Shown here piece after piece: positions 8,859 to 35,974 of a stretch of 35,976 bases of DNA (the first letter of the stretch is position 1; each line of letters starts with the position of its first letter). Under the pieces are notes generated by a model that had not been told where the DNA came from, made no database searches, and was given only the letters and a program-made list of their open reading frames with translations. The translations under genes and the position numbers were made by a program. Source of the stretch: a virus; IMG/VR virus record IMGVR_UViG_3300025770_000830, positions 1 to 35,976 of that record; one strand, written 5' to 3'.

Positions 8859-8879
8859 TTTGGATTCTTCGACTACCAC

Positions 8880-8889
8880 TATTTATAAT
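8880..8889 (+). promoter_or_regulatory. TATTTATAAT motif abutting the yeaH start
   Basis: TATTTATAAT ends 4 bases before the yeaH ATG and no Shine-Dalgarno is present. The same ten bases lie directly before the ATGs at 21601 and 23458. The likely reading is a phage promoter -10/late-promoter element giving a leaderless or nearly leaderless mRNA. No good -35 box was found. Confidence 0.45.
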
Positions 8890-8893
8890 CGTT

Positions 8894-10039
8894 ATGCCAT
8901 CACGCAGAGTCAGAGAAGACCACAAGGAATATAGAGATATCGTCAAGGGAAACGTTGACGAGAAGTTAAAGAAACATATTAAGGGTGGTCAACGGATAAC
9001 AAGACGAGGCAAAGACTTCGTGGTGGTTCGTGTACCTCATGTGGAATTACCGAATTTCAGATTTGGAAGACCATCGAATGGAGAGGGTATAGGAAATGGT
9101 GAAGCTGACGTCGGTGATGAGGTCGGTGACGGTCCACCACAAGATGGTGGCAACGAACCAGGTGAAGGTGGAAATGGAGATGGAGAACATGAAATAGATG
9201 TTGGGATAAGCATGGATGCTTATTTTGACATGATAGGTGAAGAACTTCAACTTCCAAATCTACTACCAAAGGAAAATGGTGACTTGGTGAAGGAGAAAAT
9301 AAAGTGGAATCGCATTGCCAAGGTCGGAAACAACAGTCTCCTCCACAAGAGACGAACACTCAAGAATGCGTTTAAACGAATTATCTCCGTTGGAGAATTT
9401 GATCCAATGGATGTATCAAACGTATATCCAATTAAGGAAGATATGGAATATAGAAGTTGGAGCTCCGTTGAAGTTCCAGATACCAACGCAGCTATCTTTT
9501 TTGTTGCGGACATATCCGCAAGCATGAGTCAAGACAAACGAGACTTAATCAGAGAGTTATGTTGGTATTTGGAAAATTGGATTGAAAGGTTTTATCAAGA
9601 AACTCAGAGGAAGTATATCGTCCATGATCATGTTGCCCAAGAAGTCGACCAAGAGAAATTCTACAAGTATCAGAGTGGTGGTGGAACTCAAATCAGTAGT
9701 GCGTTTGAATTGGTGAATGATGTCATAGAAAAAGCATTTCCATTGAACGAGTGGAACATTTACGTATTTTATTTAAGTGATGGTGAGAACTTTGGTGATG
9801 ACAACGAATTGTGTGTTGAACATCTTAAGAAGATGCAAAAGTATGCCAATTTAATTGGAATCACCGAGGTAAAGGCAGTTCGTAGCTGGGCAACTTTCCT
9901 ACCTCACATAAAAAATCGGATTAATAGTGGGTCACTAGACCCCAGTAAAATAGCAACGGCATCAATCGAAGGACCAGGTGACGTACTCAAGGCATTGCAG
10001 ACTTTGCTGACCCCCGCAGAGGATGAAGTTCCGTTTTAA
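8894..10039 (+). CDS. yeaH: YeaH/DUF444 von Willebrand factor A-like protein
   Basis: A 381-residue member of the DUF444 (YeaH) family, partner of PrkA in bacteria. The N-terminus RRVREDHKEYRDIVKGNVDE and RITRRGKDFVVVRVPHVELP matches the YeaH opening. Residues 60-100 are a Gly/Asp/Asn-rich linker. The VWA domain carries a MIDAS DISAS (206-210) after a hydrophobic strand and the GGGTQISSA segment (262-270). A short C-terminal tail follows the VWA domain. E. coli YeaH is about 427 residues, so this copy is somewhat compact. No Shine-Dalgarno precedes the ATG; a TATTTATAAT box ends 4 bases upstream. DUF444 proteins are thought to be substrates or adaptors of PrkA. The gene follows prkA by 35 bases and leads into spoVR 9 bases on. 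Function in the phage is unknown. Confidence 0.93.
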   Translation: MPSRRVREDHKEYRDIVKGNVDEKLKKHIKGGQRITRRGKDFVVVRVPHVELPNFRFGRPSNGEGIGNGEADVGDEVGDGPPQDGGNEPGEGGNGDGEHEIDVGISMDAYFDMIGEELQLPNLLPKENGDLVKEKIKWNRIAKVGNNSLLHKRRTLKNAFKRIISVGEFDPMDVSNVYPIKEDMEYRSWSSVEVPDTNAAIFFVADISASMSQDKRDLIRELCWYLENWIERFYQETQRKYIVHDHVAQEVDQEKFYKYQSGGGTQISSAFELVNDVIEKAFPLNEWNIYVFYLSDGENFGDDNELCVEHLKKMQKYANLIGITEVKAVRSWATFLPHIKNRINSGSLDPSKIATASIEGPGDVLKALQTLLTPAEDEVPF

Positions 10040-10048
10040 GGATTGGTT

Positions 10049-11614
10049 ATGGGAATAGCATGGGAAAGTGACAAACTCCAACAAGGTGTATGCAAGGAAT
10101 TGGCAGAGCAAATTCCCGATGTACTCAAGGCATGTTCGGATAATGGACTTGATCCATATCCTCTATGTATTGAAGAATTTGATGCAGATGAGATTGTTGA
10201 GATTGCGGCGTATGGTGGATTCCCAGTAAGGTATCCACACTTCTCATTCGGACAGCAGTTTGAACAATTACATCATCAGTATCACCACGGCATGGGCAAG
10301 ATTTATGAGATGGTGGTCAATACAGATCCAACTTATATGTACTTGCAGAGAAATAATCCGTTGGTGGATAATTTGACGGTGGTTGCCCATGCAACCGCAC
10401 ATAGTGATTTTTTTAAGAACAATATTATGTTCAAACACACGAATCGGAACATGATGAACGTAATGGCAAACCATAGTCATAAGATACGCAAGTACATGGA
10501 TAGGTTCGGTAGGAAGAAGGTTAAGGATTTTCTTAATGCGGCTCTTGCTGTTGGTGATTTGATTGATCCATCCTTGTGCTATCGTGAAAGTACGTGGAAA
10601 AAATCAAGGAAGTTTAATTTTGAGGATAGAAAACCACGTGAACACGTTTCACGAATTGAAACAAAAGAGTATATGGACAAGTGGGTAAACCCACAAGAAT
10701 ATATTGATAAGCAACGACGTGACCGAGAGGAGAAGCATAGACTAGCAGAGAATAAATTTCCAGTTCGCCCCGAGCGCGATATTATGTTGATGATAATTAA
10801 TTTTGTTCGGCTTGAACCCTGGCAACAAAATATTCTTAGCATGATTCGAGACGAGTCTCTATACTATCGTCCACAAGGAATGACCAAGGTTCTTAATGAG
10901 GGGTGGGCAAGTTATTGGGATTCTTATATTATGGCATCATGTAATTTTGCAGGAGATGAAGGAATCTTTGATTATGCAAAACATCATGCAGGTGTCCTCG
11001 GCGGAAAATATAACATGAACAACCCATATAAACTTGGGAATACTTTGTTGCGTGATATTGAAGATCGATGGAACAAGGGTAGATTCGGCACGGAGTATGA
11101 AATGTGCGAAGATGCCGAGAAACTTAGGAATTGGGATTTGAAGTTAAACAAGGGGCGTGAGAAGTTATTTGAAGTGCGTGAGAACTATAACGATGTTACC
11201 TTCTTGAACGAATTTTTCACCCGGGATTTTTGTGATAAGTACAAGTATTTTGAATATGCGTTGGATAAGGACACCAACAAATATGTGGTTGTTAGTAAAG
11301 ACCACAAGAAAATCAAACAGAAGTTGATTGACAGACATGTGAACATGGGGATGCCAGTTATATACATGGAGAACATGAAATACAATACGCATGAGATTTT
11401 ACTTAGACATGAGTTTGAAGGAAGACCATTGGATTTGAAATATGCAACGGGAACGATGGCATATCTCCACGAGATTATACAGAAACCGATTAATATTTTG
11501 ACAAACGACGTCATGGAAGAAGGTTACGGTAGTGAAAAGGAAACGGTTGAAGTTGAGGTTAGGTATCGTTATGAAAATGGTGAGATGAAACGATACGAGG
11601 GTAGCAAAGTTTAA
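10049..11614 (+). CDS. spoVR: SpoVR/YcgB-family protein
   Basis: A 521-residue SpoVR-family protein. AAGG at 10038-10041 supports ATG 10049 rather than the TTG two codons upstream. Family signatures include LEPWQQNILSMIRDESLYY, GMTKVLNEGWASYWDSYIM, HHAGVLGGKYNMNNPYKLGN, the FFTRDFCDKYKYFEY segment and FEGRPLDLKYATGTMAYLHE near the C-terminus. Length is close to E. coli YcgB (about 510). SpoVR is needed for Bacillus spore cortex formation and is widespread in non-sporulating bacteria, where it is usually linked with prkA and yeaH; its biochemical activity is not settled. The conserved HHxx and NEGWA regions look intact. Its presence downstream of prkA-yeaH means the whole bacterial triad has been retained as a unit. 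Confidence 0.94.
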   Translation: MGIAWESDKLQQGVCKELAEQIPDVLKACSDNGLDPYPLCIEEFDADEIVEIAAYGGFPVRYPHFSFGQQFEQLHHQYHHGMGKIYEMVVNTDPTYMYLQRNNPLVDNLTVVAHATAHSDFFKNNIMFKHTNRNMMNVMANHSHKIRKYMDRFGRKKVKDFLNAALAVGDLIDPSLCYRESTWKKSRKFNFEDRKPREHVSRIETKEYMDKWVNPQEYIDKQRRDREEKHRLAENKFPVRPERDIMLMIINFVRLEPWQQNILSMIRDESLYYRPQGMTKVLNEGWASYWDSYIMASCNFAGDEGIFDYAKHHAGVLGGKYNMNNPYKLGNTLLRDIEDRWNKGRFGTEYEMCEDAEKLRNWDLKLNKGREKLFEVRENYNDVTFLNEFFTRDFCDKYKYFEYALDKDTNKYVVVSKDHKKIKQKLIDRHVNMGMPVIYMENMKYNTHEILLRHEFEGRPLDLKYATGTMAYLHEIIQKPINILTNDVMEEGYGSEKETVEVEVRYRYENGEMKRYEGSKV

Positions 11615-22158: not shown

Positions 22159-23166
22159 ATGAAAACAGGTGAACTATTGGGCAAGGAGTCGGAGGGAGTC
22201 AATCAAATACTCCCCCACAAACATAAATGGGCATGGGAAATGTACGAGCAGGGTGTGAAGAACAACTGGGTACCAACCGATGTACCAATGACAAAGGACG
22301 TTCAGAACTGGAAGTCTGGTAATGGGGAGAGTTTGAGTGACGACGAACGTCTTGTTATTAAGAGATGTCTTGGATTCTTCGCGGGAAGTGAAAGTTTAGT
22401 TGCGAATAACTTAATGACACTTGCACAATATATCACAGACCCGGAGTGTAGACAGTACATGGCCAGGCAGATGTATGAGGAATGTTTACATAATCACACC
22501 ATTGTTTATATTTGTGATAGTCTTGGTTTAAGTATCACTGAAGTATATGAGGCATATAATACGGTATCATCCATTAAAGCAAAGGATGACTTTTTGATGG
22601 AAGTGACCAAGGAACTTAATGGAAAAAACTTGAACACACAAACAAAACAAGGAAAGCGTGAGTTATATAAAACTGCGTTCACTTATTGGATTGTCTGCGA
22701 GGGAACTTTCTTTTTCAGTGGATTTGCTATGTTACTTGCACTGAGCGATAAGATTCCGGGGATTGCAGAACAGATTCAGTATACTTTGCGAGATGAGAGT
22801 GTTCATATTAAATTTGGCACTACTCTACTTCTGAAACTTCAAGAACAATATCCGGAAATCATGGACAAAACCTTTGAGAAGGAACTGACGGATGTTCTAC
22901 AAAAGGCAGTGGAGTTGGAAATTGCATATGCACAAGATGTACTACCAAGAGGAATTCTCGGATTGAATTCCGAAATGTTTGTGGACTATATGCAATTCGT
23001 TGCAAATCGTAGACTTGAGAACTTAAATATGGATTTCAGATATGATAGTGATCACAATCCCTTCCCTTGGTTGAGTGAGATTATTGACCTCCGTAAACAA
23101 AAGAACTTTTTTGAAACTAGAGTTACAGAGTATCAAGATGAATCTGCATTAATTGACGATTTTTAA
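22159..23166 (+). CDS. nrdB: Ribonucleotide reductase small (beta) subunit, lacking the radical Tyr
   Basis: A 335-residue NrdB. Metal ligands are Glu78 (FFAGSESLVANN), Glu108 and His111 (YEECLHNHTIVYIC), Glu181 (CEGTFFFSG), Glu213 and His216 (RDESVHIKFG). Using a Glu at the first ligand and the SESLVANN context matches the Chlamydia-type class Ic lineage rather than E. coli NrdB. The residue at the usual radical-Tyr position, four after His111, is Ile115; class Ic has Phe there. The protein thus probably uses a Tyr-independent metal cofactor, such as Mn/Fe or di-Mn. The C-terminus ends in DDF, the usual docking tail to NrdA. No Shine-Dalgarno is seen; TATTTAAT directly abuts the ATG. Confidence 0.95.
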   Translation: MKTGELLGKESEGVNQILPHKHKWAWEMYEQGVKNNWVPTDVPMTKDVQNWKSGNGESLSDDERLVIKRCLGFFAGSESLVANNLMTLAQYITDPECRQYMARQMYEECLHNHTIVYICDSLGLSITEVYEAYNTVSSIKAKDDFLMEVTKELNGKNLNTQTKQGKRELYKTAFTYWIVCEGTFFFSGFAMLLALSDKIPGIAEQIQYTLRDESVHIKFGTTLLLKLQEQYPEIMDKTFEKELTDVLQKAVELEIAYAQDVLPRGILGLNSEMFVDYMQFVANRRLENLNMDFRYDSDHNPFPWLSEIIDLRKQKNFFETRVTEYQDESALIDDF

Positions 23167-23457: not shown

Positions 23458-23883
23458 ATGGCAGAGGGTAACTGGAAGGAACTAAGTGAAAAGAAGAATA
23501 AAGCAGTCGATGCAAAGACATTCAAATTCCTCCCCACCGAACCACTTAAGAATATAAAATTGTTGTTGGTGGTGCTACTCCATCACGCAGTTGTTATTGG
23601 TAATTTTTCAGCATTTTTTATACTCGCATTTCAGGGATTCACTCCATATGGATTCCCTTGGTATGTAGCACTTCCTCTGTGTTCGTTTATTATATTGGTA
23701 TCATTTTCCAAAGTATTGGATTGTCCAATGACTCAATACGAAAATAAATTAAGACGTGACGTAGGCAAGCCAGAAATTCGTGGGTTTATGAAACACTATA
23801 TAATGCGTCCATATGCTAGATTTAGATATAATTTAAAGAAAGCAAAGAAAGCAAGAGAAGAAAAGAAATCAACGGATAGTTGA
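23458..23883 (+). CDS. Two-span membrane protein of unknown function
   Basis: A 141-residue protein with a polar N-terminus, two transmembrane helices (about 34-57 and 68-86) separated by a short Pro/Gly/Trp loop, then a conserved-looking segment CPMTQYENKLRRDVGKPE and a basic tail ending KKAKKAREEKKSTDS. The CPxTxxEN motif after the second helix recalls DUF2784-type small membrane proteins, though the match is by eye only. Basic flanks suggest both ends in the cytoplasm. It precedes the Ldh2-type dehydrogenase by 2 bases, so the two are likely cotranscribed. Confidence 0.6.
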   Translation: MAEGNWKELSEKKNKAVDAKTFKFLPTEPLKNIKLLLVVLLHHAVVIGNFSAFFILAFQGFTPYGFPWYVALPLCSFIILVSFSKVLDCPMTQYENKLRRDVGKPEIRGFMKHYIMRPYARFRYNLKKAKKAREEKKSTDS

Positions 23884-23885
23884 CG

Positions 23886-24965
23886 ATGAAGTTAAAATTT
23901 GAAGAAGCATACGACTTTGTTCTGTGGGTTTTTAAAAAGAATAAAGTACCCAAGAAATATTTGAATATATGTGCAGATGTCTTGTTAAGTGCAGACGAAC
24001 TTGGTTTCAAGTCTCATGGATTGAGTAGACTTGGGTATTACGTAAAACGAATCAAGGATGGTGTGATAGATGTAAAGGCAGAACCTGAAATTGTACGAGA
24101 TAGTAAATCATGTGTAACGATTGATGGTCACAATGCACTGGGTCAGGTGGTGGGTTCACTTGCAATTGAACAAGCAATCACCAAAACCCAAGAACATGGA
24201 ATAAGTTGCGTTGCGGTTAGAAATTCATCACACTATGGAATTGCAAGTTATTATAGCCGATTGGCAACGGAACATAATTTGGTGGGAATGAGTTTTACGA
24301 ATGCCCGACCAGCAGTTGCACCATTTAACGGTGCAGAACCAAAGATGGGAACAAATCCGTTCGCAATAGCATTCCCGTCTGATATGAAATACCCGTTCAG
24401 TATTGATTGTGCAACTTCTGCATACCAACGAGGTGACCTTGAAATCCAGGCCAGAAAGAATCCGAATCAATATGTGCCAAATTGTGCAATAGTTTCTCAA
24501 AATGAAAATCTTACGTTTGAACGTTCTTTGCGTTGGTTGAAAAAAGGAATAGCAGCGTTAACTCCAATTGGAGGGCATAAGGGTTCTGGATTATCTATTG
24601 CAATAGAATTAATGTGTTCAGCATTTCAGAGTGGTGCATATATGAGCAAGTTGAGTGGACTTTATGAAGGAGATACTGACAATCCTAGTTATGACATTGG
24701 TCATTTCTTTGTTTGTATTGATCCGGAAAATTTCACGGAACTTGATAACTTTAAAAAGAATGTCGGTGATGTCATGCGAGAGTTGAAGGAAACAAAATCA
24801 ATTAAAGGTGAGGATGAGGTTCTTGTTCCGGGTGAGATTGAATACAAGACTTCTCTTGAGGTGCATAAGGATGGGATAGAAGTTCCAGAGGAGTTGTTTG
24901 CCGATTTGAAAAAACTTGGATTTGATAGATGGAAGAAACAACACATAGCAAAAAATTCGAAATAA
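23886..24965 (+). CDS. Ldh2-family NAD(P)-dependent malate/lactate-type dehydrogenase
   Basis: A 359-residue member of the Ldh2/malate-dehydrogenase-2 family (PF02615), structurally unrelated to ordinary MDH/LDH. Family features are GFKSHGLSRLGYYVKRI near residues 40-55, VTIDGHNALGQVVGS, the catalytic NSSHYGIASYYSRLA, MSFTNARPAVAPFNGAEPKM, GTNPFAIAFP and the LTPIGGHKGSGLSIAIEL segment. Members oxidise 2-hydroxyacids such as malate, L-lactate, sulfolactate, ureidoglycolate or imino acids; the substrate cannot be fixed from sequence. Length is typical. The start is ATG 23886; a TTG two codons earlier is less likely. It lies just upstream of the beta-oxidation operon and would produce a 2-oxoacid and NAD(P)H. 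Use of such a gene by a phage is uncommon. Confidence 0.88.
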   Translation: MKLKFEEAYDFVLWVFKKNKVPKKYLNICADVLLSADELGFKSHGLSRLGYYVKRIKDGVIDVKAEPEIVRDSKSCVTIDGHNALGQVVGSLAIEQAITKTQEHGISCVAVRNSSHYGIASYYSRLATEHNLVGMSFTNARPAVAPFNGAEPKMGTNPFAIAFPSDMKYPFSIDCATSAYQRGDLEIQARKNPNQYVPNCAIVSQNENLTFERSLRWLKKGIAALTPIGGHKGSGLSIAIELMCSAFQSGAYMSKLSGLYEGDTDNPSYDIGHFFVCIDPENFTELDNFKKNVGDVMRELKETKSIKGEDEVLVPGEIEYKTSLEVHKDGIEVPEELFADLKKLGFDRWKKQHIAKNSK

Positions 24966-25177
24966 TCATTGCAATAACCGGAATGTTGGGTGGTATAATG
25001 TTGCCGTTTCCAGAATATTTGGGTTGGGGTTTTTTGGTTTTTCTTATTGCAAACTTTCTCAGTATGATATTTTTCTATGGTAGAAAGATGTATTGGTTGG
25101 CCGCATTGGCATTTTATTTTGTGATAGTTGACGCAATTGGTGTTTGGATAAATTTACTGGTGGGGTGGTTGGTATGA
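24929..25177 (+). CDS. Small polytopic membrane protein
   Basis: An 82-residue very hydrophobic protein with three probable transmembrane helices (about 10-26, 31-50 and 55-80). It starts 37 bases inside the end of the dehydrogenase gene in another frame and its stop overlaps the next start as ATGA, so the three genes are likely translationally coupled. The loop FFYGRKMYWLAAL suggests a positive-inside turn. No transporter motif is recognisable. It could carry the dehydrogenase substrate or product, or be a small regulator of a membrane complex, but this is only position-based. Confidence 0.6.
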   Translation: MEETTHSKKFEIIIAITGMLGGIMLPFPEYLGWGFLVFLIANFLSMIFFYGRKMYWLAALAFYFVIVDAIGVWINLLVGWLV

Positions 25178-25797
25178 GATTGATGGATTTTATGGAAGAT
25201 TATGAAGAGCATGTTTCTCTTGGAGGAACTTGTCGTGTTTCGTTGAAGCTAAAGGAAAAGGGATTTCGGAAAGGTTCGTATCCTTTTGATTGGATTGTTA
25301 TCAGTCTAATCCAACTCACGGACTTACTTGAGAATGATTTTGACGGATGGTCGGATAGAGACAACATGGTACATCTGCAAGGTGAATGGTATGAAAATAC
25401 AAGATACGGAACGGGTCATAAGCACGAATTCACGGAAGCAACTGAGAACCGAGGTGACCACTTATATGATTTTAATGATGATAAGGATTTTGCAAAGTGG
25501 CAAGATGAGAAGAAACGCAGAGCAGAAAGGTTTGTGGATTTGTTGGATTCCGATAAGAAAGTTCTATTTGTCAAAAGAAGTAGAATGTCCAAGACCGGTG
25601 GAGGATATATACCAACAAGACTTGACCCATTCGAGGAATTGAAATCTACATGTAAGTTTGCCGATTATCTTGAGACAGCTTACCCAAAACTGAATTTTGA
25701 CATACTATTCATCAATACCGGGTCGTGGAAACATTGCAACTATGTGTGTAGTTCAAGGGTGATTTGTGTATCCGAGTATCAGTGGAATGCCTTGTAA
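25174..25797 (+). CDS. DUF1796 putative papain-like cysteine peptidase
   Basis: ATG 25174 overlaps the upstream TGA (ATGA), giving 207 residues. The N-terminus carries the DUF1796 hallmark: VSLGGTCRVSLKLKEKGFRK (Cys20 the proposed nucleophile) followed by GSYPFDWIV (34-42). The family is annotated as putative papain-like cysteine peptidases, though many members may be glycan-related and activity is rarely shown. A central His-rich area (GHKHEFTEA, GDHLYDFN) and the strand KKVLFVKRS follow. The C-terminus is short and ends at EYQWNAL. Found often next to glycosyltransferases in bacteria, but here it stands alone between a membrane protein and the thiolase gene. Family assignment is good, function open. 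Confidence 0.75.
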   Translation: MRLMDFMEDYEEHVSLGGTCRVSLKLKEKGFRKGSYPFDWIVISLIQLTDLLENDFDGWSDRDNMVHLQGEWYENTRYGTGHKHEFTEATENRGDHLYDFNDDKDFAKWQDEKKRRAERFVDLLDSDKKVLFVKRSRMSKTGGGYIPTRLDPFEELKSTCKFADYLETAYPKLNFDILFINTGSWKHCNYVCSSRVICVSEYQWNAL

Positions 25798-25819
25798 GGC
25801 TATGGCCACACCTATTTGT

Positions 25820-25848
25820 TTGACTAATTCAATATATATTGACATAGT
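25820..25848 (+). promoter_or_regulatory. Possible promoter of the beta-oxidation operon
   Basis: TTGACT (25820-25825) and CATAGT (25843-25848) are spaced by 17 bases. The transcript would start near 25855 and include AAAAGG (25861-25866) before ATG 25872. A second TTGACA at 25839 has no suitable -10 partner. The -10 box is weak, so confidence is modest. Confidence 0.35.
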
Positions 25849-25871
25849 TATACATTGAATAAAAGGTTATA

Positions 25872-27119
25872 ATGAGTAAAAATGTTTACATAGTTAGTGG
25901 TGTGCGAACACCATTTTGCAAGATGGGTTCCGATTTTACGACTGCATCTGCATCTGATTTGGGAGTATGTTCAACGAAAAGATTGTTCACCAACTTAGAT
26001 TTAGATCCATCTATAATAGACGAAAGTGTGATGGGATGCGTTTGCCAACCCGCGGATACCGCAAATATAACGAGAGTCATTGCACTTCGTGCAGGAGTAC
26101 CAAAATCCGTTCCCGCATATACAGTGCATAGGAATTGTGCCTCGGGGTTTGAGTCGGTAACACAAGTGTCCGACAAGATTAATGCAGGAAGAGGGTCAGT
26201 TTATTTGTCTGGAGGATCGGAGAATATGACAAATGCCCCATTCATCTATAACGCAAGTGCAGTTAAGAAGTTTACCAAACTTTCAAGGAGCAGATACTTC
26301 AGAGATAAACTACATAACATATTGTCATTTCGACCATCCGATTTTGCACCCATCGTCAGTCTCCGACTCGGGTTGAGTGACGTCACAGTTGGTATGAACA
26401 TGGGACAAACTGCTGAATTGATTGCAAGGGAGAACGGAGTTACACGATATCATCAAGATACTTTTGCACTGGAGTCTCACTTGAAGGCATTCGTTGCGAA
26501 AGAAAAGTTCGACAAGGAAATTACACCCTATTATTTTCCAGATGGAAGATTTGTTACCGAGGACAACGGAATCCGTGGAGAACAATCATTGGGTGCATTG
26601 GAGAAACTTAAACCAGTCTTTGACAGACGAGAGGGAACAGTCACCGCCGGAAACGCATCTCAAATTACCGATGGGGCAGTATCGTTGTTGATGTCCGATG
26701 AACAGGCGATAACTGAAAACGGATGGGAACCACTTGGTAGAGTTACCGCATATGCGTACGCTGGGTGTGATCCCGAAAGAATGGGACTTGGTCCGGTGTA
26801 TGCAATTGAAAAGGTTTGTGCAGAAGCTGGGTTGAAGATGAAGGATTTTGATTTAATTGAGGTGAATGAGGCCTTCGCAGCGCAAGTGTTGTCGGTATGT
26901 AAGGTACTTGAGAATACAACTGATTTGGGTGAAATTCCAAAAGAGAAGTTAAACGTTAACGGAGGTGCGATTGCATTGGGTCATCCCGTAGGTTCGTCCG
27001 GTTCAAGAATTGTTCTTACCACATTAAAGGAACTTGAAAGACGAGGAGGTAGACGGGCATTAGTTTCTCTTTGTATTGGTGGTGGTCAAGGTGGTGCAAT
27101 TATCTTAGAAAGAGAATAA
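25872..27119 (+). CDS. fadI: FadI-like thiolase (3-ketoacyl-CoA thiolase)
   Basis: A 415-residue thiolase. The nucleophilic Cys89 sits in YTVHRNCASGFESV. The other catalytic elements are VNEAFAAQV, the NGGAIALGHPVGSSGSR His loop and the C-terminal LCIGGGQGGA Cys. The FadI/trifunctional-protein-beta subfamily is favoured by RTPFCKMGSDF near the start, an internal MNMGQTAELIARENGVTR and the VTEDNGIRGEQSLG loop. It cleaves 3-ketoacyl-CoA to acetyl-CoA and a shortened acyl-CoA, the last step of a beta-oxidation turn. It starts after AAAAGG with the TTATA leader and its stop overlaps the next start by one base. With fadJ and an acyl-CoA dehydrogenase it forms a pathway unit. A biosynthetic acetoacetyl-CoA thiolase is less likely given the partners. 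Confidence 0.92.
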   Translation: MSKNVYIVSGVRTPFCKMGSDFTTASASDLGVCSTKRLFTNLDLDPSIIDESVMGCVCQPADTANITRVIALRAGVPKSVPAYTVHRNCASGFESVTQVSDKINAGRGSVYLSGGSENMTNAPFIYNASAVKKFTKLSRSRYFRDKLHNILSFRPSDFAPIVSLRLGLSDVTVGMNMGQTAELIARENGVTRYHQDTFALESHLKAFVAKEKFDKEITPYYFPDGRFVTEDNGIRGEQSLGALEKLKPVFDRREGTVTAGNASQITDGAVSLLMSDEQAITENGWEPLGRVTAYAYAGCDPERMGLGPVYAIEKVCAEAGLKMKDFDLIEVNEAFAAQVLSVCKVLENTTDLGEIPKEKLNVNGGAIALGHPVGSSGSRIVLTTLKELERRGGRRALVSLCIGGGQGGAIILERE

Positions 27120-29194
27120 TGAGTAATACAATAAAAAGAACAATATTTGACAACGTATGCACACTTACGTTTGACCAACCTAAATCAGCCGCAAACGTAC
27201 TGAACGAAGGAATTTTTGAAGAACTGAATGTGCAGTTGGATTTCGTTGAAGAAAACGAGGACACACTTAGAGGTGTCGTGTTTGCAAGTGCCAAGAAAAG
27301 TATTTTTATTGCAGGTGCGGATTTGAATGCATTTGCAAGTAATCCAGATGAAGCAAGGGTGGAGGAATTAATCTTGATGGGACAGGAGACCTTCACTCGT
27401 ATCGAGAATCTGAAGATTCCAACAGTCGCAGCCATTCATGGTGCATGTCTTGGGGGTGGGTATGAACTTGCTCTTGCGTGTGACCACCGAGTTGCATCCG
27501 TAGATCCCGCAACTAAAGTCGGATTACCGGAAACCATGTTGGGAATTCTTCCTGCATGGGGAGGTTCAACGAGATTGCCGAGAATGATTGGCTTGCCATC
27601 TGCAATGGGAATTATTCTTGCGGGAAGTGTGGTCGTTGCAAAGAAAGCACTTAAACTTGGGATGGTGGATAAGGTAGTATTTAAGGAAAATCTTCAGAAG
27701 TCTGCTGTTTCGTGTCTCCACAATGGAAAGAAGAAGTATAAGAAACTGTGGTCAAACAAGTTTCCAATTTCAACCATTGCAAGGAGAAAGGCAACTCAGA
27801 ACGTAATGAAAAAGACCAACGGACTTTATCCTGCACCATTGGAAGCAATTGACGTGATGGTCGATGGTCTTGGTAGAGATATAAAAGGTTCGTTGCAATT
27901 GGAAAGAGAAGCATTTGAAAGATTACTGAAGACGGATGTTGCGGAAAACTTGGTCGGTGTATTCTTTCTACAAGAGAGGTCAAAGAAAACCAAAGGTGAG
28001 AAGGGATATAAGGTTGGAAAGTCTGCGGTTATAGGTGCAGGTGTCATGGGTGCAGGAATTGCTCAGTGGGTAAGTTCACGAGGCATTCCCACGATTCTCA
28101 AGGATATTAAACCGGAGTTCGTTGCAAATGGAATGAAGACCATTGGAAAACTTTATGGAGCAGCGGTAAAGAAACGAGTGATGACAAAAACTGAGGCACA
28201 ATCCTCATTGGACAGAATTACACCTCTTACCGAAACAATGCCGATGACTCATGTTGATTTTGTTGTTGAAGCCGCAGTCGAGAAGTTGGATATCAAGAAG
28301 AAGCTGTTTCTTGAATTGGAGCAAAACGTCAGAGAGGATACTGTACTGGCAACTAATACGTCGGCACTTTCAATTGACGTTATTTCCGAGGGTATGGAAC
28401 ATCCCGAACGAGTGGTCGGTGTTCATTTCTTCAACCCAGTTCACAAGATGAAGTTGGTGGAAATCGTCAAGGGTGATAATACTTCCGATGAAACCGTTGG
28501 AAAGGCAGTTGAGTTTACCAAACAAATCGGCAAGTTGCCCGTGGTGGTTAAGGATAGTCCTGGTTTCTTGGTCAATAGAATTTTAATGCCTTATCTTATT
28601 GAGGCAGTTTACCTTTCATCAATTGGAACTGAGGTTGACCGAGTTGACAAACTCTTGCGTGACTTCGGAATGCCTATGGGCCCATTCCGTTTGATAGACG
28701 AAGTGGGTGGGGACGTATGTCAACACGTTGCCGATGATTTATTGGCACGACTTGATACTGAGTTTCCAAATTCAAATGCCCTTAGAAAGATGATTGAGAA
28801 CGGAGACTTCGGAAAGAAATCGGGTAAGGGATTTTATCTTTACAAGAATGGTAGGTCAAGTGGGGTCAATGAAAAATACAAAAGGGAACTCACTCAATTA
28901 CCATTTTCCGATGAGGTAATTCTTGACCGATTGGTGCTTATCATGGTAAACGAAGCAGTTAGATGCCTTCAAGAAGGAATCGTAGGAAGTCCAAGGGACA
29001 TTGATTTCGGAATGATAATGGGAACGGGATGGGCACCGTTCAGAGGTGGTCCAATGAGGTATCTTGATTCCGAAGGTGCTTTAAACATATTCAATAGAAT
29101 GAAGGAACTTGAAAAGAAGCACAAGTACTTCAAACCTTGCGAATTGTTATCGGAATATTCTAACAACGACAAGAAATTTTACGAGGAAAAATAA
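27119..29194 (+). CDS. fadJ: FadJ-like enoyl-CoA hydratase / 3-hydroxyacyl-CoA dehydrogenase
   Basis: A 691-residue bifunctional enzyme. ATG 27119 shares one base with the thiolase stop. The crotonase domain has the oxyanion stretch FIAGADLNAF (63-72), and catalytic Glu116 (LGGGYELALA) and Glu138 (GLPETMLGILPAWGG). The NAD-binding dehydrogenase domain starts with VIGAGVMGAGIAQ (304-316), followed by TNTSALSID and the catalytic pair His436/Glu448 in VGVHFFNP and MKLVEIV. The C-terminal domain has KDSPGFLVNRI and GWAPFRGGPMRYLD. The order is that of FadB/FadJ and mitochondrial trifunctional alpha subunit. All key residues are intact, so an active enzyme is expected. It converts trans-2-enoyl-CoA to 3-ketoacyl-CoA with NADH output for the thiolase next door. 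The length is close to E. coli FadJ (714). Confidence 0.94.
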   Translation: MSNTIKRTIFDNVCTLTFDQPKSAANVLNEGIFEELNVQLDFVEENEDTLRGVVFASAKKSIFIAGADLNAFASNPDEARVEELILMGQETFTRIENLKIPTVAAIHGACLGGGYELALACDHRVASVDPATKVGLPETMLGILPAWGGSTRLPRMIGLPSAMGIILAGSVVVAKKALKLGMVDKVVFKENLQKSAVSCLHNGKKKYKKLWSNKFPISTIARRKATQNVMKKTNGLYPAPLEAIDVMVDGLGRDIKGSLQLEREAFERLLKTDVAENLVGVFFLQERSKKTKGEKGYKVGKSAVIGAGVMGAGIAQWVSSRGIPTILKDIKPEFVANGMKTIGKLYGAAVKKRVMTKTEAQSSLDRITPLTETMPMTHVDFVVEAAVEKLDIKKKLFLELEQNVREDTVLATNTSALSIDVISEGMEHPERVVGVHFFNPVHKMKLVEIVKGDNTSDETVGKAVEFTKQIGKLPVVVKDSPGFLVNRILMPYLIEAVYLSSIGTEVDRVDKLLRDFGMPMGPFRLIDEVGGDVCQHVADDLLARLDTEFPNSNALRKMIENGDFGKKSGKGFYLYKNGRSSGVNEKYKRELTQLPFSDEVILDRLVLIMVNEAVRCLQEGIVGSPRDIDFGMIMGTGWAPFRGGPMRYLDSEGALNIFNRMKELEKKHKYFKPCELLSEYSNNDKKFYEEK

Positions 29195-29197
29195 ATA

Positions 29198-31051
29198 ATG
29201 ACGGATGAAATAGATACTTCAAAAATGTCCAAGGGTAAGGCAGATGCCTTGGAGGCTGCAGAGGCCGCAAGAGATGTAGGTAAAAAAGGAGTAAAGAGTT
29301 ATGCAGGTGGTTTGTTTATGGGTGATGCTGATTTTGATTTGATTTATCCGTTCCCCGAACAACCTGAAGTTGACGTGAAGGCAGGTGAACAATTTATATC
29401 CCAATTGAGTGACGTGATGGAGAATCACGTAGATGCAGACAAGATTGATAGAGAAGGTGAAATTCCAGATGAAGTATTTAGGAAGTTGGCAGAGATTGGG
29501 GCATTTTGCATCAAGATCCCAACAGAGTATGACGGACTTGGTTTGTCACAGACGAACTATTCAAAATCCGCAATGCTTCTTGGGCGTCATTGTGGTAACA
29601 TAACCGCATTGATTTCTGCTCACCAATCAATCGGAGTTCCACAACCTTTGTTGTTATTTGGAACGGATGAGCAGAAGAAGAAACATCTTCCGAGATTTAG
29701 AAAGGGTGACGTAAGTGCATTTGCATTGACCGAGGAAACCGTTGGGTCTGACCCCGCACAAATGACTGCATATGCCGAGTTGTCTGAAGACGGAACTCAT
29801 TACGTACTCAATGGTGACAAACTTTGGTGTACGAATGGAGTCAAGGCAAGTGTCATTATTGTTATGGCAAGAACACCCGATGTTGAAATCAAAGGAAAGA
29901 TGAGGAAATCAATTTCAGCATTAATCGTAGACATGGACACTCCAGGAGTGGAAGTTATTGTGCGTTGCCGATTTATGGGATTGAAGGCACTCTATAATGG
30001 AATTGTGAGGTTTACTGATGCCAAGATACCCGTTGAAAACCTAGTCGCAGGAGAAGGTCGTGGTTTGAAGGTTGCATTGAGCACTTTGAACACAGGCAGA
30101 TTGACGTTACCCGCTGCATGTGTTGGACTTATGAGTAGTTGTTTGAAGATTTCAAGGGAATGGAGTTCTACGAGAGAGCAATGGGGTTGTGTAATTGGAA
30201 AACACCAAGCAATCGCAGACAAGATTACCAAGACTGCAATTTCCAATTTTGCAACGGAAACTATGGTGTTGTTTACATCAAGTCTCGTTGATGGAAAGAA
30301 GGCCGACATCCGTGTGGAATCCGCAATGTGCAAGATGTGGGGAACAGAAGAAGCATGGAGAGTAACAGATGACACGATGCAAATCCGAGGTGGTCGTGGT
30401 TATGAAACTGCTGACTCGTTGAAGAATCGAGGAATGGAGCCAATCGCAGTTGAACGATTTATGCGAGATTGTCGTATCAATCTTATCTTTGAAGGTTCAA
30501 GTGAAATTATGCGTTTACTTCTTGCTAGAGAAGCACTTGACCCACACTTAAAGGCAGCCGGCGCAGTATTGAATTCAAGATTGCCAATTATGGTGAGGTT
30601 GAAAGCCGCACTTGGTGCTGGATTGTTTTATGCAAAGTGGTATCCGAAACAGTGGTTACCATCGTTAGGTGGAACTCCACGTGGACTGGATGGAAGTCTT
30701 AAAAAGTATTTACGTTATGTATCACGAACTTCCAAGAAATTGTCCAAGAAACTATTTCATTCAATGGCAAGGCACGGGCCAGCATTGGATAAACAACAAT
30801 TGCTTCTTGCAAGACTCGTTGAAATCGGGACGGAACTATTTGTTATATCAGCATGTACATTGAGAATTGATTCAATGATAAAGAACGAGACTGCACCGAG
30901 AAAGGATTTGTTGCAGTTGATGGATGCAGTCTTTAGTGAATCCAAGGTTCGTATCAAGAATAACTTTTCTTCCATGAGAAACAACAATGACAAGGGGAAC
31001 TATTCTCTCGCAAGAAAAATTTTAGACGGTACCTTTAAGTTTTTAGAATAA
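29198..31051 (+). CDS. fadE: VLCAD-type acyl-CoA dehydrogenase
   Basis: A 617-residue FAD-dependent acyl-CoA dehydrogenase starting 3 bases after fadJ. Landmarks: FALTEETVGSDPAQ (175-188) and KLWCTNGVKASVI (208-220) of the FAD/substrate pocket, IRGGRGYETAD (397-406), and the catalytic base Glu432 in LIFEGSSEIMRLL. The ~170-residue extension beyond the core, with Arg/Lys-rich helices, resembles the C-terminal membrane-associating extension of VLCAD/ACAD9 enzymes. It makes the first double bond in acyl-CoA and passes electrons to electron-transfer flavoprotein, which is not encoded in the window and would come from the host. The gene symbol denotes role rather than orthology: E. coli FadE is larger (814) and distant. 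Probably long-chain specific, by family resemblance. Confidence 0.92.
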   Translation: MTDEIDTSKMSKGKADALEAAEAARDVGKKGVKSYAGGLFMGDADFDLIYPFPEQPEVDVKAGEQFISQLSDVMENHVDADKIDREGEIPDEVFRKLAEIGAFCIKIPTEYDGLGLSQTNYSKSAMLLGRHCGNITALISAHQSIGVPQPLLLFGTDEQKKKHLPRFRKGDVSAFALTEETVGSDPAQMTAYAELSEDGTHYVLNGDKLWCTNGVKASVIIVMARTPDVEIKGKMRKSISALIVDMDTPGVEVIVRCRFMGLKALYNGIVRFTDAKIPVENLVAGEGRGLKVALSTLNTGRLTLPAACVGLMSSCLKISREWSSTREQWGCVIGKHQAIADKITKTAISNFATETMVLFTSSLVDGKKADIRVESAMCKMWGTEEAWRVTDDTMQIRGGRGYETADSLKNRGMEPIAVERFMRDCRINLIFEGSSEIMRLLLAREALDPHLKAAGAVLNSRLPIMVRLKAALGAGLFYAKWYPKQWLPSLGGTPRGLDGSLKKYLRYVSRTSKKLSKKLFHSMARHGPALDKQQLLLARLVEIGTELFVISACTLRIDSMIKNETAPRKDLLQLMDAVFSESKVRIKNNFSSMRNNNDKGNYSLARKILDGTFKFLE

Positions 31052-31060
31052 AACTCAATT

Positions 31061-32416
31061 ATGAACTTGAGTGTATTTGATTTTTTCAAGATTGGTCTTG
31101 GGCCATCTAGTTCACATACAATGGGTCCGATGAAGGCGGCAAAACAATTTGTCGGATATTTGAAACAAACCAAGAAGTTTGGTGACATTGACGGAATTCG
31201 AGTTGAATTGTATGGTTCTCTTGCGTTGACGGGTGAAGGTCACGGAACATTGGATGCAGTCAAGATAGGGTTGCAAGGAAAATCACCCGATGAAGTTAAG
31301 ACAGATGAAATTGAGGGACTTGTTAAACTTAAGGGACATATTAAATTGGGGGGCCTTCGGAAGATCAAGTTTAAGGATGAACACATTGAGTTTAAGAAGG
31401 GGAAGTGGTTACCATTCCATCCCAATGGAATAAAATTCGTGGGAATCACCAAGAAAAAGGATATATGCCACCGCACCTACTATTCAGTGGGTGGTGGGTT
31501 CGTAGTGACCGAAAAAAACGCAAAGAAGGATAAGTTGAAGGAAGTGTCCAAGGAAGTTCCCAACCCCTTTAAATCGGCAACGGAACTTGTGAATATTGCA
31601 ATTAGGAAGGAAGTGAGAATTTCCGACATCATTCTTGAAAATGAATTGACATGGAGAAAGAAGAACCAAGTATTCAATCGATTGAAGAAAATTTGGAAGG
31701 TCATGCAATCGTCAGTCAATCGAGGAATTACAACCCAAGGCATTCTACCAGGAAAATTGAAACTTGAACGGCGTGCAGCGTCCATGTATGAGAACTTCTT
31801 GCTGAAAAGTGACTTAGATGCACATCAGTTTATGGACTATGCAAGCATATGTGCAATTGCGGTCAACGAGGAAAACGCAAATATGGGAAGAGTTGTTACT
31901 GCACCGACTAATGGTGCAGCGGGGATAATTCCCGCGGTGATGTCGTATGTAGACGACTACATCACCGACAAAGATGATGACTGGTCGTCTAGATTTTTAC
32001 TGACCTCGGGAGCAATTGCAATGTTGTATAAAATGAATGCATCCATTTCTGGTGCAGAGGTCGGTTGTCAGGGAGAAGTGGGAGTTGCCTGCTCTATGGC
32101 GGCCGGAGCATTGACGGAATTAGTCGGTGGGTCAGTCAGTCAAGTGGAAGATGCAGCGGAAATTGGTATGGAACATAATCTTGGGTTGACCTGTGATCCA
32201 GTTGCAGGCCTGGTACAGATTCCGTGTATTGAGAGAAATGCAATGGGAGCAGTTAAGGCAATAAATGCAAGTCGAATGGTTATGTTGGGAGAAACTGATT
32301 CCAAGATAAGTTTGGACGAAGTGATAAATACTATGCGTGAAACTGGTAAGGATATGAAGTCTGCATACAAGGAAACTTCCGAGGGGGGTCTTGCGGTGAA
32401 TATAACCGAGTGTTGA
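31061..32416 (+). CDS. sdaA: L-serine dehydratase (iron-sulfur type)
   Basis: A 451-residue single-chain L-serine ammonia-lyase, close in length to E. coli SdaA (454). The N-terminal beta domain has [17 protein letters not shown] (11-27), the substrate/regulatory region. The catalytic alpha domain has [35 protein letters not shown] and [15 protein letters not shown] with the Cys residues that hold the [4Fe-4S] cluster, then [15 protein letters not shown]. It converts L-serine to pyruvate and ammonia. It follows the acyl-CoA dehydrogenase by 9 bases, so it belongs to the same transcription unit. Together the four genes deliver acetyl-CoA, pyruvate and NADH. All cluster Cys appear intact. The enzyme is oxygen-sensitive in bacteria. 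Confidence 0.94.
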
Positions 32417-32449: not shown

Positions 32450-33844
32450 ATGTATATTAAGGAACTCGAGAAGTTTATTCAAAAACCATATAAGAATGGT
32501 GAAGGTGATCTGGTTGTACCTTATTACTATATAGGTGAGAAAGATTGGACAGACATCAAAGAGCAATATGAAGTGAATGACCTTAAGGAAACACTCGCTG
32601 AGATCTTGATGAAATATGAACCTCCGTACATGGATATTACGGAGCATGAGGCCCTTGAAGATTTTAAGACACTCAAGGGATTGGGAATTCACGATCTGAA
32701 TGAATATGTTGAGGTAAAGAAATCGGTTAACACGGACTTTTTCAGTTCGTTCACAATGACAGATGATCAGGAGGAGGATTACCAAAAGGCATCTAATAAA
32801 CGAAAACGTCAAAGTCAACAATCCCTGTTCACCGAAGCTTCTTGGTTTGCTCGTTCTGAATATAAGTGGCCCCTGAGTGATAGAGTATTGAAACGGTTGA
32901 ATGCGGGCAACAAGGCAAGTAATTTTTTCCAACAGGAAAACCGATGGAGTGTTGACGGAAGTGTTTCACCTGGACCACTTAGAACTTGGACAAATAAAAG
33001 TTTTATGACGAGTTTAATGGGAAGTCTGTTTACGTTGAAAGCCCCCAGGGTGGATAAACGTGCAATGCGAACTAGTATAGGGTTGCGTAAATATATTTGC
33101 AGTCAGTTCAAACCAAATGTTGCAAAGTTAATATATGATTTTTATCCTGCGTCTATTGAAGGTCGTAATACAAATCAAGCAAAGACGGTATTGGATTTTA
33201 GCATGGGGTGGGGAGATAGATTCGCAGGATTTTACGCAAGCAGTATTGCGGAACATTATATAGGTCTTGATCCCAGAAAAGAAAATCATCCAATATATCA
33301 ACAACAGGCCGATTTCTATGAAAAGTTTAAAACCGAGTATGAGACAAAGAAAACATATGATTTTATTTGTTCACCGGCTGAAGATGCGGATTTGACTAAA
33401 TATGAAAATTCTGTTGATTTGATTATGACAAGTCCACCTTATTTTTCCGTGGAGAGATATAGTTACGATGATACTCAAAGTTGGGTTCGTCATAAAAATA
33501 TCAATGATTGGAATGAGCAATTCTTGCACCGTGCGATTGATAATGTATGGACAACCCTGAAAGTAGGTGGATTGCTTATGGTTAACATAAGTGATGTCAA
33601 TGCAACTAGTAAGGGAACTAAGGGTGGAAAGCAGTGGCAAAAGATCTGTGACCCAATGAACGAACACTTAAGTCGGAAGTCTGATTCTAGTTATGTCGAA
33701 TGCTTTGGGATGGAAATGGCAAAACGACCAAACTGCCTTGGAATTGGAACCGCGGATGATATTGAAGATAGTAATATGGATCAAGAATATCACGAAAGAG
33801 AAGGAAGTTTTGGTGAACCAGTGTGGGTTTGGCAAAAAACTTAG
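32450..33844 (+). CDS. DNA methyltransferase (SPPY type) with N-terminal extension
   Basis: A 464-residue protein. The first 180 residues are a polar, partly helical region of no recognised family. The MTase domain has SAM motif I VLDFSMGWGDRFAGFY (247-262), a downstream acidic Asp (YIGLDPRKE), the catalytic motif IV TSPPYFSVERY (327-337), and a V-G-G-L-L-M-V-N-I strand. TSPPY is typical of amino-MTases acting on N4-cytosine or N6-adenine. Motif order I then IV differs from the methyltransferase at 11620. TTGACT at 32413-32418 overlaps the preceding stop codon and may be a promoter element. The large N-terminal part could recognise DNA or another substrate. A modified-base role against host restriction is likely; RNA or protein targets are not excluded. 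Confidence 0.82.
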   Translation: MYIKELEKFIQKPYKNGEGDLVVPYYYIGEKDWTDIKEQYEVNDLKETLAEILMKYEPPYMDITEHEALEDFKTLKGLGIHDLNEYVEVKKSVNTDFFSSFTMTDDQEEDYQKASNKRKRQSQQSLFTEASWFARSEYKWPLSDRVLKRLNAGNKASNFFQQENRWSVDGSVSPGPLRTWTNKSFMTSLMGSLFTLKAPRVDKRAMRTSIGLRKYICSQFKPNVAKLIYDFYPASIEGRNTNQAKTVLDFSMGWGDRFAGFYASSIAEHYIGLDPRKENHPIYQQQADFYEKFKTEYETKKTYDFICSPAEDADLTKYENSVDLIMTSPPYFSVERYSYDDTQSWVRHKNINDWNEQFLHRAIDNVWTTLKVGGLLMVNISDVNATSKGTKGGKQWQKICDPMNEHLSRKSDSSYVECFGMEMAKRPNCLGIGTADDIEDSNMDQEYHEREGSFGEPVWVWQKT

Positions 33845-35398: not shown

Positions 35399-35974
35399 AT
35401 GGAAAGTACTTCAAACAATGTAGACGAAACGGAGAAATCCACAGAATGTAATTCGTGGTATACACTAATGGTAATGTCAAATTTCGAAGATAAAGTTCAG
35501 AAATTGTTAATGAAAAAAAAACTTGATGCCAAGGAGAAGGCCTCCGAATTTTTTCACGAAGTGCTGATGCCATCCCAGATAGTTACCGAGGTGAAGCAAG
35601 GGAAAAAATCATCCAGAGTTAAAAAGTTATATCCTGGATATTTGTTCGTCCGCATGGATTTGTATAATTCGGAGAGTGATTTAAATGGTGATGCGTTTTA
35701 TTTTGTAAAGCAAGTGAATGGGGTGAGAGGATTTATAGGTGGAAATAGTCCAACCCAACTCAAACGAGTGGAAATAGAGCAGATACAAGACCACATACGA
35801 CAATTTCAGAATAAAGAAACCCCCAAACATAAACTTGATATCGGACAACCTGTCCGCATACTTGATGGTCCGTTTATAAATTTTGAAGGTCCTGTGATTG
35901 AAGTTGATAATGAATTGGGCAAACTTAAGGTTGAGGTTTCCATATTTGGACGGGAAACCCCCGTTGAATTGTAA
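35399..35974 (+). CDS. nusG: NusG-family transcription elongation/antitermination factor
   Basis: A 191-residue NusG. The NGN domain starts at SWYTLMVMSNFEDKVQKLL (19-37), continues with FFHEVLMPSQIVTEVKQGKK and KKLYPGYLFVRMDLYN, and ends VNGVRGFIGGNSPTQLK. The C-terminal KOW domain follows: LDIGQPVRILDGPFINFEGP then KLKVEVSIFGRETPVEL. This is strikingly like cellular NusG, but the stop comes right after TPVEL, so the last 8-10 residues usual in bacteria are missing. NusG binds RNA polymerase, suppresses pausing, and through KOW contacts Rho or ribosomal S10. In a phage it could redirect host polymerase or block Rho termination on phage operons. No secE or ribosomal-protein gene precedes it. 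Confidence 0.93.
   Translation: MESTSNNVDETEKSTECNSWYTLMVMSNFEDKVQKLLMKKKLDAKEKASEFFHEVLMPSQIVTEVKQGKKSSRVKKLYPGYLFVRMDLYNSESDLNGDAFYFVKQVNGVRGFIGGNSPTQLKRVEIEQIQDHIRQFQNKETPKHKLDIGQPVRILDGPFINFEGPVIEVDNELGKLKVEVSIFGRETPVEL

Follow-up and report, generated by a model that had tools for sequence, protein, structure and literature searches.

A beta-oxidation gene block with serine dehydratase in T4-like phages and its probable capture from a Verrucomicrobiota-like bacterium

The auxiliary metabolic gene sets of cyanophages comprise photosystem, pentose-phosphate and nucleotide genes and redirect flux to nucleotides. Overall, the metabolic genes known so far from phages serve mostly photosynthesis or the tuning of sugar and nucleotide metabolism, or are single enzymes. 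In giant viruses, a 2022 review reported the presence of acyl-CoA dehydrogenase and acyl-CoA synthetase, with hydratase and thiolase undetected (PMC9270025), and a phage contig of a cold-seep mussel virome carries one expressed enoyl-CoA hydratase (PMC11078923).

In the current study, we describe a block of four phage genes predicted to encode the core of a beta-oxidation turn together with a serine dehydratase. A first-pass annotation of this DNA knew of no well-characterised phage with such a unit, and our searches of the open-access literature likewise turned up no virus reported to have a complete beta-oxidation turn.

Gene map and enzymes of the block

The stretch of DNA analysed (the window) is the whole IMG/VR record IMGVR_UViG_3300025770_000830, a linear fragment of 35,976 bases with nearly all genes on the + strand. 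From the left, it encodes baseplate/tail proteins, a family A polymerase-like protein, PrkA kinase-DUF444-SpoVR, a methyltransferase, SSB, UvsX and an exonuclease, then a DnaB-type helicase, NrdA, a trypsin-like protease, NrdB, DUF2784, an Ldh_2 dehydrogenase and small ORFs, and finally thiolase, FadJ, acyl-CoA dehydrogenase (ACAD), SdaA, a DNA methyltransferase, a SAP-domain protein and NusG, ending 2 bases past NusG. The PrkA serine kinase, DUF444 and SpoVR genes are consecutive (6750-11614), like bacterial YeaG-YeaH-YcgB, and the kinase has 50% identity to that of the huge phage LR756511 and about 32% to those of Thermus phages.

Two phage groups are considered below. Lineage A (clade A) is the T4-like group of the window, with 23 contigs including the window (22 further ones), gathered partly by a scan with NrdB. 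Lineage B consists of G003 (107 kb), G004 (48 kb), IMGVR 3300032006_002787 and the contig L039 (NZCP01000022.1), which is labelled Candidatus Woesebacteria in a genome collection and is apparently a mis-binned phage contig.

The four block genes all lie on the + strand, head to tail, with the gaps of -1, 3 and 9 bases originally annotated. The first (25872-27119) encodes a 3-ketoacyl-CoA thiolase (FadI/FadA-like; PF00108/PF02803, Thiolase_N/C, above cut-off) with PDB relatives that include FadI 8bnu and the trifunctional-enzyme beta 6dv2, and its expected catalytic Cys, His and Cys are present as Cys89, His371 and Cys401, invariant across eight phage copies. The second (27119-29194) encodes a FadJ-type hydratase/dehydrogenase (PF00378+PF02737+PF00725, i.e., ECH_1 + 3HCDH_N + 3HCDH, above cut-off) whose top PDB match is 8bnu_C, the FAO complex alpha (E 7e-164). 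It starts at the ATG at 27119, a longer ORF with a TTG start at 27071 being an artefact, and combines the hydratase pair Glu116/Glu138 of an alpha subunit with an NAD-binding 3-hydroxyacyl-CoA dehydrogenase (GAGVMGAG, His436/Glu448), residues that are invariant in the phage copies. The third gene (29198-31051) encodes a VLCAD/ACAD9-type acyl-CoA dehydrogenase with a C-terminal extension (PF02771/02770/00441 + PF21343, ACAD9-ACADV_C, above cut-off). Its top PDB match is ACAD9 (8phe), and the catalytic Glu432 in IFEGSSEIMR, invariant in the phage copies, is aligned with IFEGTNEILR of human ACAD9. The fourth (31061-32416) encodes an Fe-S (type II) L-serine dehydratase, SdaA, with fused beta and alpha domains (PF03315+PF03313, SDH_beta + SDH_alpha, above cut-off), which aligns end to end with 4rqo, with the cluster cysteines and the C-terminal Cys conserved. 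These identities, based on matches to solved structures, were judged unambiguous, and the alignments bear out the earlier claim that the catalytic residues are intact. By the residues of its thiolase, alpha subunit and ACAD, the block matches a bacterial operon of the FAO/trifunctional-enzyme type and is predicted to have its activity.

The first-pass annotation was also right that the turn is complete save for acyl-CoA synthetase and electron-transfer flavoprotein (ETF). Searches for the former (PF00501) in 17 viral records and for the latter (PF01012) in 8, all of them incomplete, gave no match, with positive controls. Beta-oxidation is thus not self-sufficient in these records, and the simplest reading is that the host must supply both acyl activation and electron transfer; without FadD and ETF the pathway is wholly host-dependent, all long contigs being incomplete. 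An acyl-CoA synthetase match in the MAG holding L039 is on a separate contig with no tie to the phage.

On the left flank, the phage ribonucleotide reductase small subunit NrdB (22159-23166, +; phrog_86) is syntenic in the clade-A contigs. It is followed by two further genes of the conserved neighbourhood, encoding a DUF2784 small membrane protein (23458-23883, +; PF10861) and an Ldh_2 family NAD(P) dehydrogenase of the malate/lactate/sulfolactate type (23880-24965, +; PF02615, E 4e-104), with a probable start at the ATG at 23886 and a best NCBIfam match to L-sulfolactate DH, under cut-off. A DUF1796 (papain-like peptidase) gene lies directly 5' of the thiolase gene in the window (25144-25797) and in L007 (9273-9920) only, and is absent there in the remaining relatives. 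The intergenic leader of the thiolase gene (25798-25871, +) contains TTGAC...TATA-like elements, partly conserved in seven phages, and since their spacing of about 22 is non-canonical we regard it as a putative promoter only. The T4 late promoter TATAAATA was uninformative, each of its 5 matches (1.9 expected) lying on the minus strand. On the right flank, an N6/N4 DNA methyltransferase (32450-33844, +; PF01555, phrog_12517/phrog_67) and the NusG-like antiterminator (35399-35974, +; phrog_6386) are syntenic in L002 and L004.

Predicted role during infection

Judged from sequence, the block most likely serves to oxidize acyl-CoA and serine of the host and so to provide energy and carbon, considering the intact enzymes, the selection on their genes (see below), the linkage of SdaA and the position beside nucleotide-synthesis genes. 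We propose that acyl-CoA made by a host synthetase, with fatty acids that are stored, imported or derived from membranes, would be passed to the phage enzymes and oxidized through host ETF and the respiratory chain, giving acetyl-CoA, NADH and reduced ETF. SdaA, whose gene directly follows the other three in the T4-like group, with the Ldh_2-family dehydrogenase gene just upstream of the block, would convert serine to pyruvate and ammonia. The phage might thereby gain energy, reducing power, and carbon and nitrogen for its nucleotide and protein synthesis once host uptake fails. A demand of this kind exists, as in a phosphorus-limited, phage-infected marine bacterium fatty-acid degradation proteins rise and lipids fall, via host genes (PMC11170926).

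The first-pass annotation had proposed the burning of lipid and serine by the phage in the infected cell, and this becomes likelier now that the genes are seen to be under purifying selection, that there are two phage carriers and that one relative has a second block for amino-acid catabolism. The latter was found in a single phage, the lineage-A contig G001 (IMGVR_UViG_3300046168_000085, 80 kb), which extends 35 kb beyond NusG, where the window stops. Just past NusG and the gene next to it, the beginning of which is also seen in G002 before that contig ends, G001 carries an arginine succinyltransferase block (L060:7093-14964, - strand, the same strand as its beta-oxidation block) with an HglS-family gene, AstD, an M20 hydrolase, a class III aminotransferase, AstA and AstB. 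AstB, AstD and the HglS gene are split between frames in G001, and likewise NrdA, DnaB and Ldh_2; these last three are intact in other contigs, so that we read the splits as sequencing errors. An AstA probe matched G001 alone, and no phage with arginine succinyltransferase genes was found in the open-access literature. Together, SdaA and the arginine block suggest amino-acid as well as fatty-acid breakdown. Besides, G001 encodes IF-3 (infC, E 2e-54; L059:8665-9207), a peptide-deformylase-like protein (L059:6732-7280) and a DUF2828/DUF7788 protein (L059:10752-12299), all on the - strand.

Two other uses of the enzymes are less favoured than oxidation. The block could serve acyl-chain turnover or remodelling instead of energy supply, either by clearing acyl-CoA from membrane breakdown or by altering the lipid pool before lysis. 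VLCAD/ACAD9-type enzymes favour long, membrane-type chains, and the DUF2784 small membrane protein is linked to the thiolase-FadJ-ACAD trio in both lineages. However, SdaA directly after the trio in lineage A and arginine catabolism in one relative fit general catabolism better, and no lipase was noticed in the annotation, in a search that was not systematic, so that we consider remodelling unlikely. Reverse flux or product-making (chain elongation, acetoacetyl-CoA, hydroxyacyl-CoA) appears more improbable still. The enzymes can run backward under some conditions, with thiolase and 3-hydroxyacyl-CoA dehydrogenase being reversible, and the thiolase profile is also a good match to acetoacetyl-CoA thiolases, but FAD acyl-CoA dehydrogenases of the VLCAD type are strongly oxidative, and the annotation contains neither a trans-enoyl-CoA reductase nor a PHA synthase.

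Origin of the block and selection on it

The nearest bacterial relatives, in one scan of genome_contigs, were mainly Verrucomicrobiota, many of them with thiolase-fadJ-acd in identical order. The Verrucomicrobiota thiolase-fadJ-VLCAD operon (loci L010, L011, L013, L115 and L146) shares with the phages the same three genes, order and strand, at about 45-61% identity, while the stretches examined lack SdaA, Ldh_2 and DUF2784, their spacers are mostly longer and their GC is usually higher. We built an ACAD tree with seven phage ACADs and a bacterial set to which 286 genomes from a single class and 177 from a single order had been added. In this tree, the phage ACADs group together in one clade (support 100/99-100) nested among the ACADs of the Verrucomicrobiota operons; the closest bacterial rows are G058, G311 and G316, with a support of 55/94 for the branching fork, in a sample that was partly picked by motif and may hide a closer bacterial sister group. 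The thiolase tree agrees, with a weaker support of 93/81, and the FadJ tree did not resolve the phage placement. The phylogenies called for by the first-pass annotation thus point to a Verrucomicrobiota-like donor for ACAD and, less strongly, for thiolase.

The shared gene order and the single phage ACAD clade indicate that the trio was taken en bloc and long ago, apparently once or with later exchange between phages. The host is probably also a member of the Verrucomicrobiota, judging from the origin of the genes and from a DUF1501 protein in lineage B (L005:13348-14631; found in G003), a virulent phage being able to carry non-host genes. DUF1501 is a family typical of Planctomycetes and Verrucomicrobia, and we take its presence as a possible hint to the host.

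Between clade-A phages, dN/dS (Nei-Gojobori, pairs with unsaturated synonymous sites) is about 0.06-0.12 for thiolase, 0.10-0.16 for FadJ, 0.07-0.14 for ACAD and 0.11-0.17 for SdaA, against 0.02-0.09 for the NrdB control. These values indicate that all four genes are under purifying selection, used as proteins and kept by the phages. It is therefore very improbable that the block is functionless cargo carried by chance: the genes were indeed gained by transfer, and phages whose NrdB is more distant had no such block in the 10 kb inspected, but, next to the low dN/dS, the gene order is conserved across deep divergence and all copies inspected have open frames except those of the contig G001, which is prone to frameshifts.

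Phage carriers, catalogue trimming and comparison with known systems

In the lineage-A contigs the flanking order is kept. Ldh_2 is present in all 17 that extend past its start, and thiolase in all nine that reach its position, the remaining ones stopping short; the four-gene block occurs in the window and in the three other contigs that reach SdaA, in one of which SdaA is cut by the contig end. None of the 23 contigs passes the site without the block. The same junctions on both sides recur in independent contigs from many metagenomes, and the genes to the left (baseplate, PrkA, UvsX, DnaB-type helicase, NrdA/B) are those of a phage, as the first-pass annotation had held for the replication and methyltransferase genes. 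The T4-like myovirus assignment rests on UvsX (phrog_97) and a baseplate wedge protein in the window, and on the T4-type major head protein (phrog_138) and tail sheath (phrog_23) on one contig in the syntenic G002 (57 kb). In GC3 the block is no different from the phage around it, at 0.36-0.43 in the window and 0.19-0.23 in the lower-GC G002, which reflects adaptation of the genes to the respective phage. Clade-A phages share about 80% ACAD identity with one another and no more than about 61% with any bacterial copy. A single-protein probe with SdaA gave zero matches in viral_contigs.

In lineage B, neither the tail genes of the window nor the larger part of the window's replication module had a detectable match, the helicase is only 22% identical to that of the window, and a terminase was detected in G003 (phrog_2). 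Where its contigs reach, thiolase-FadJ-ACAD is followed by DUF2784, without SdaA and Ldh_2. DUF2784 (L005:11821-12168) is thus near the trio in both unrelated lineages, in different places, directly 3' of ACAD in lineage B and 5' of Ldh_2 in lineage A. Many INPHARED records with such enzymes (Acinetobacter phage MD-2021a, S.Kent, ECO95, MT835486, CAKLQF/CAKLQH, OR845-OR851 series) appear bacterial; the sole one checked, MT835486.1, has a thl-crt-hbd-bcd-etf cluster amid bacterial genes.

The search in other viral contigs proposed earlier thus found the block in clade A and the trio in lineage B, and neither the misjoin nor the host flanks that might have undone the phage reading turned up. That the block is host DNA, through a chimera or the bacterial flank of a prophage, has a negligible probability and is refuted by synteny: the genes do come from bacteria and are apparently handled as host by catalogue software, with nine contigs ending at gene edges, but both junctions are identical in independent contigs with phage genes beyond each end, on a single strand and with phage-like GC3, the phage ACADs are monophyletic and far closer to each other than to bacteria, and a second phage lineage carries the trio in different surroundings.

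These contig ends deserve attention. L174 (161,235 bases), L183 (151,802 bases), L179 (94,640 bases) and L181 end on the third base of the DUF2784 stop codon, L175, L177 and L187 with the base before the thiolase ATG, and L189 and L161 at the thiolase stop codon, and L184, nearly identical to L183 and from another metagenome, continues into Ldh_2. Nine ends that coincide to the base with gene edges do not result from assembly breaks. The IMG/VR pipeline uses CheckV-type tools that trim host regions, and such trimming of the block in viral catalogues would explain all nine.

As a whole, we consider it probable that an ancestral phage captured a beta-oxidation operon en bloc from a Verrucomicrobiota-like bacterium and that two unrelated groups of large tailed phages carry this operon today, where it would be expressed and act catabolically in infection, in the oxidative direction and to the benefit of the phage. 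More tentatively, and with somewhat less than even confidence, we suggest that large phages of a widespread group have a general programme of catabolism, which covers fatty acids by beta-oxidation, serine and, in one or more members, arginine by the succinyltransferase pathway, that this programme gives a virocell burning lipids and amino acids, and that its island is hidden by catalogue trimming as host. A complete turn as a ready operon in two unrelated phage groups would mean that phages can force the burning of cell lipids and amino acids, and makes it testable whether phages can encode the lipid loss of infected cells. Should the trimming be real, catalogues delete such islands and phage metabolic capacity is underestimated.

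Flanked by phage genes at either end in independent genomes and kept by selection, the block falls among the auxiliary metabolic genes, an already known class. It resembles the cyanophage sets in consisting of host-derived genes in T4-like phages beside nrdA/B, but differs in being catabolic and in forming one contiguous operon that was taken up as a block. Prymnesium kappa virus RF01 and other Mimiviridae likewise encode an acyl-CoA dehydrogenase, which is thought to feed host energy metabolism (PMC9270025), but in these the carrier is a eukaryotic virus. In the mussel virome a beta-oxidation enzyme is also found on a phage contig (PMC11078923), there as one gene, here as a complete colinear turn across phage groups.
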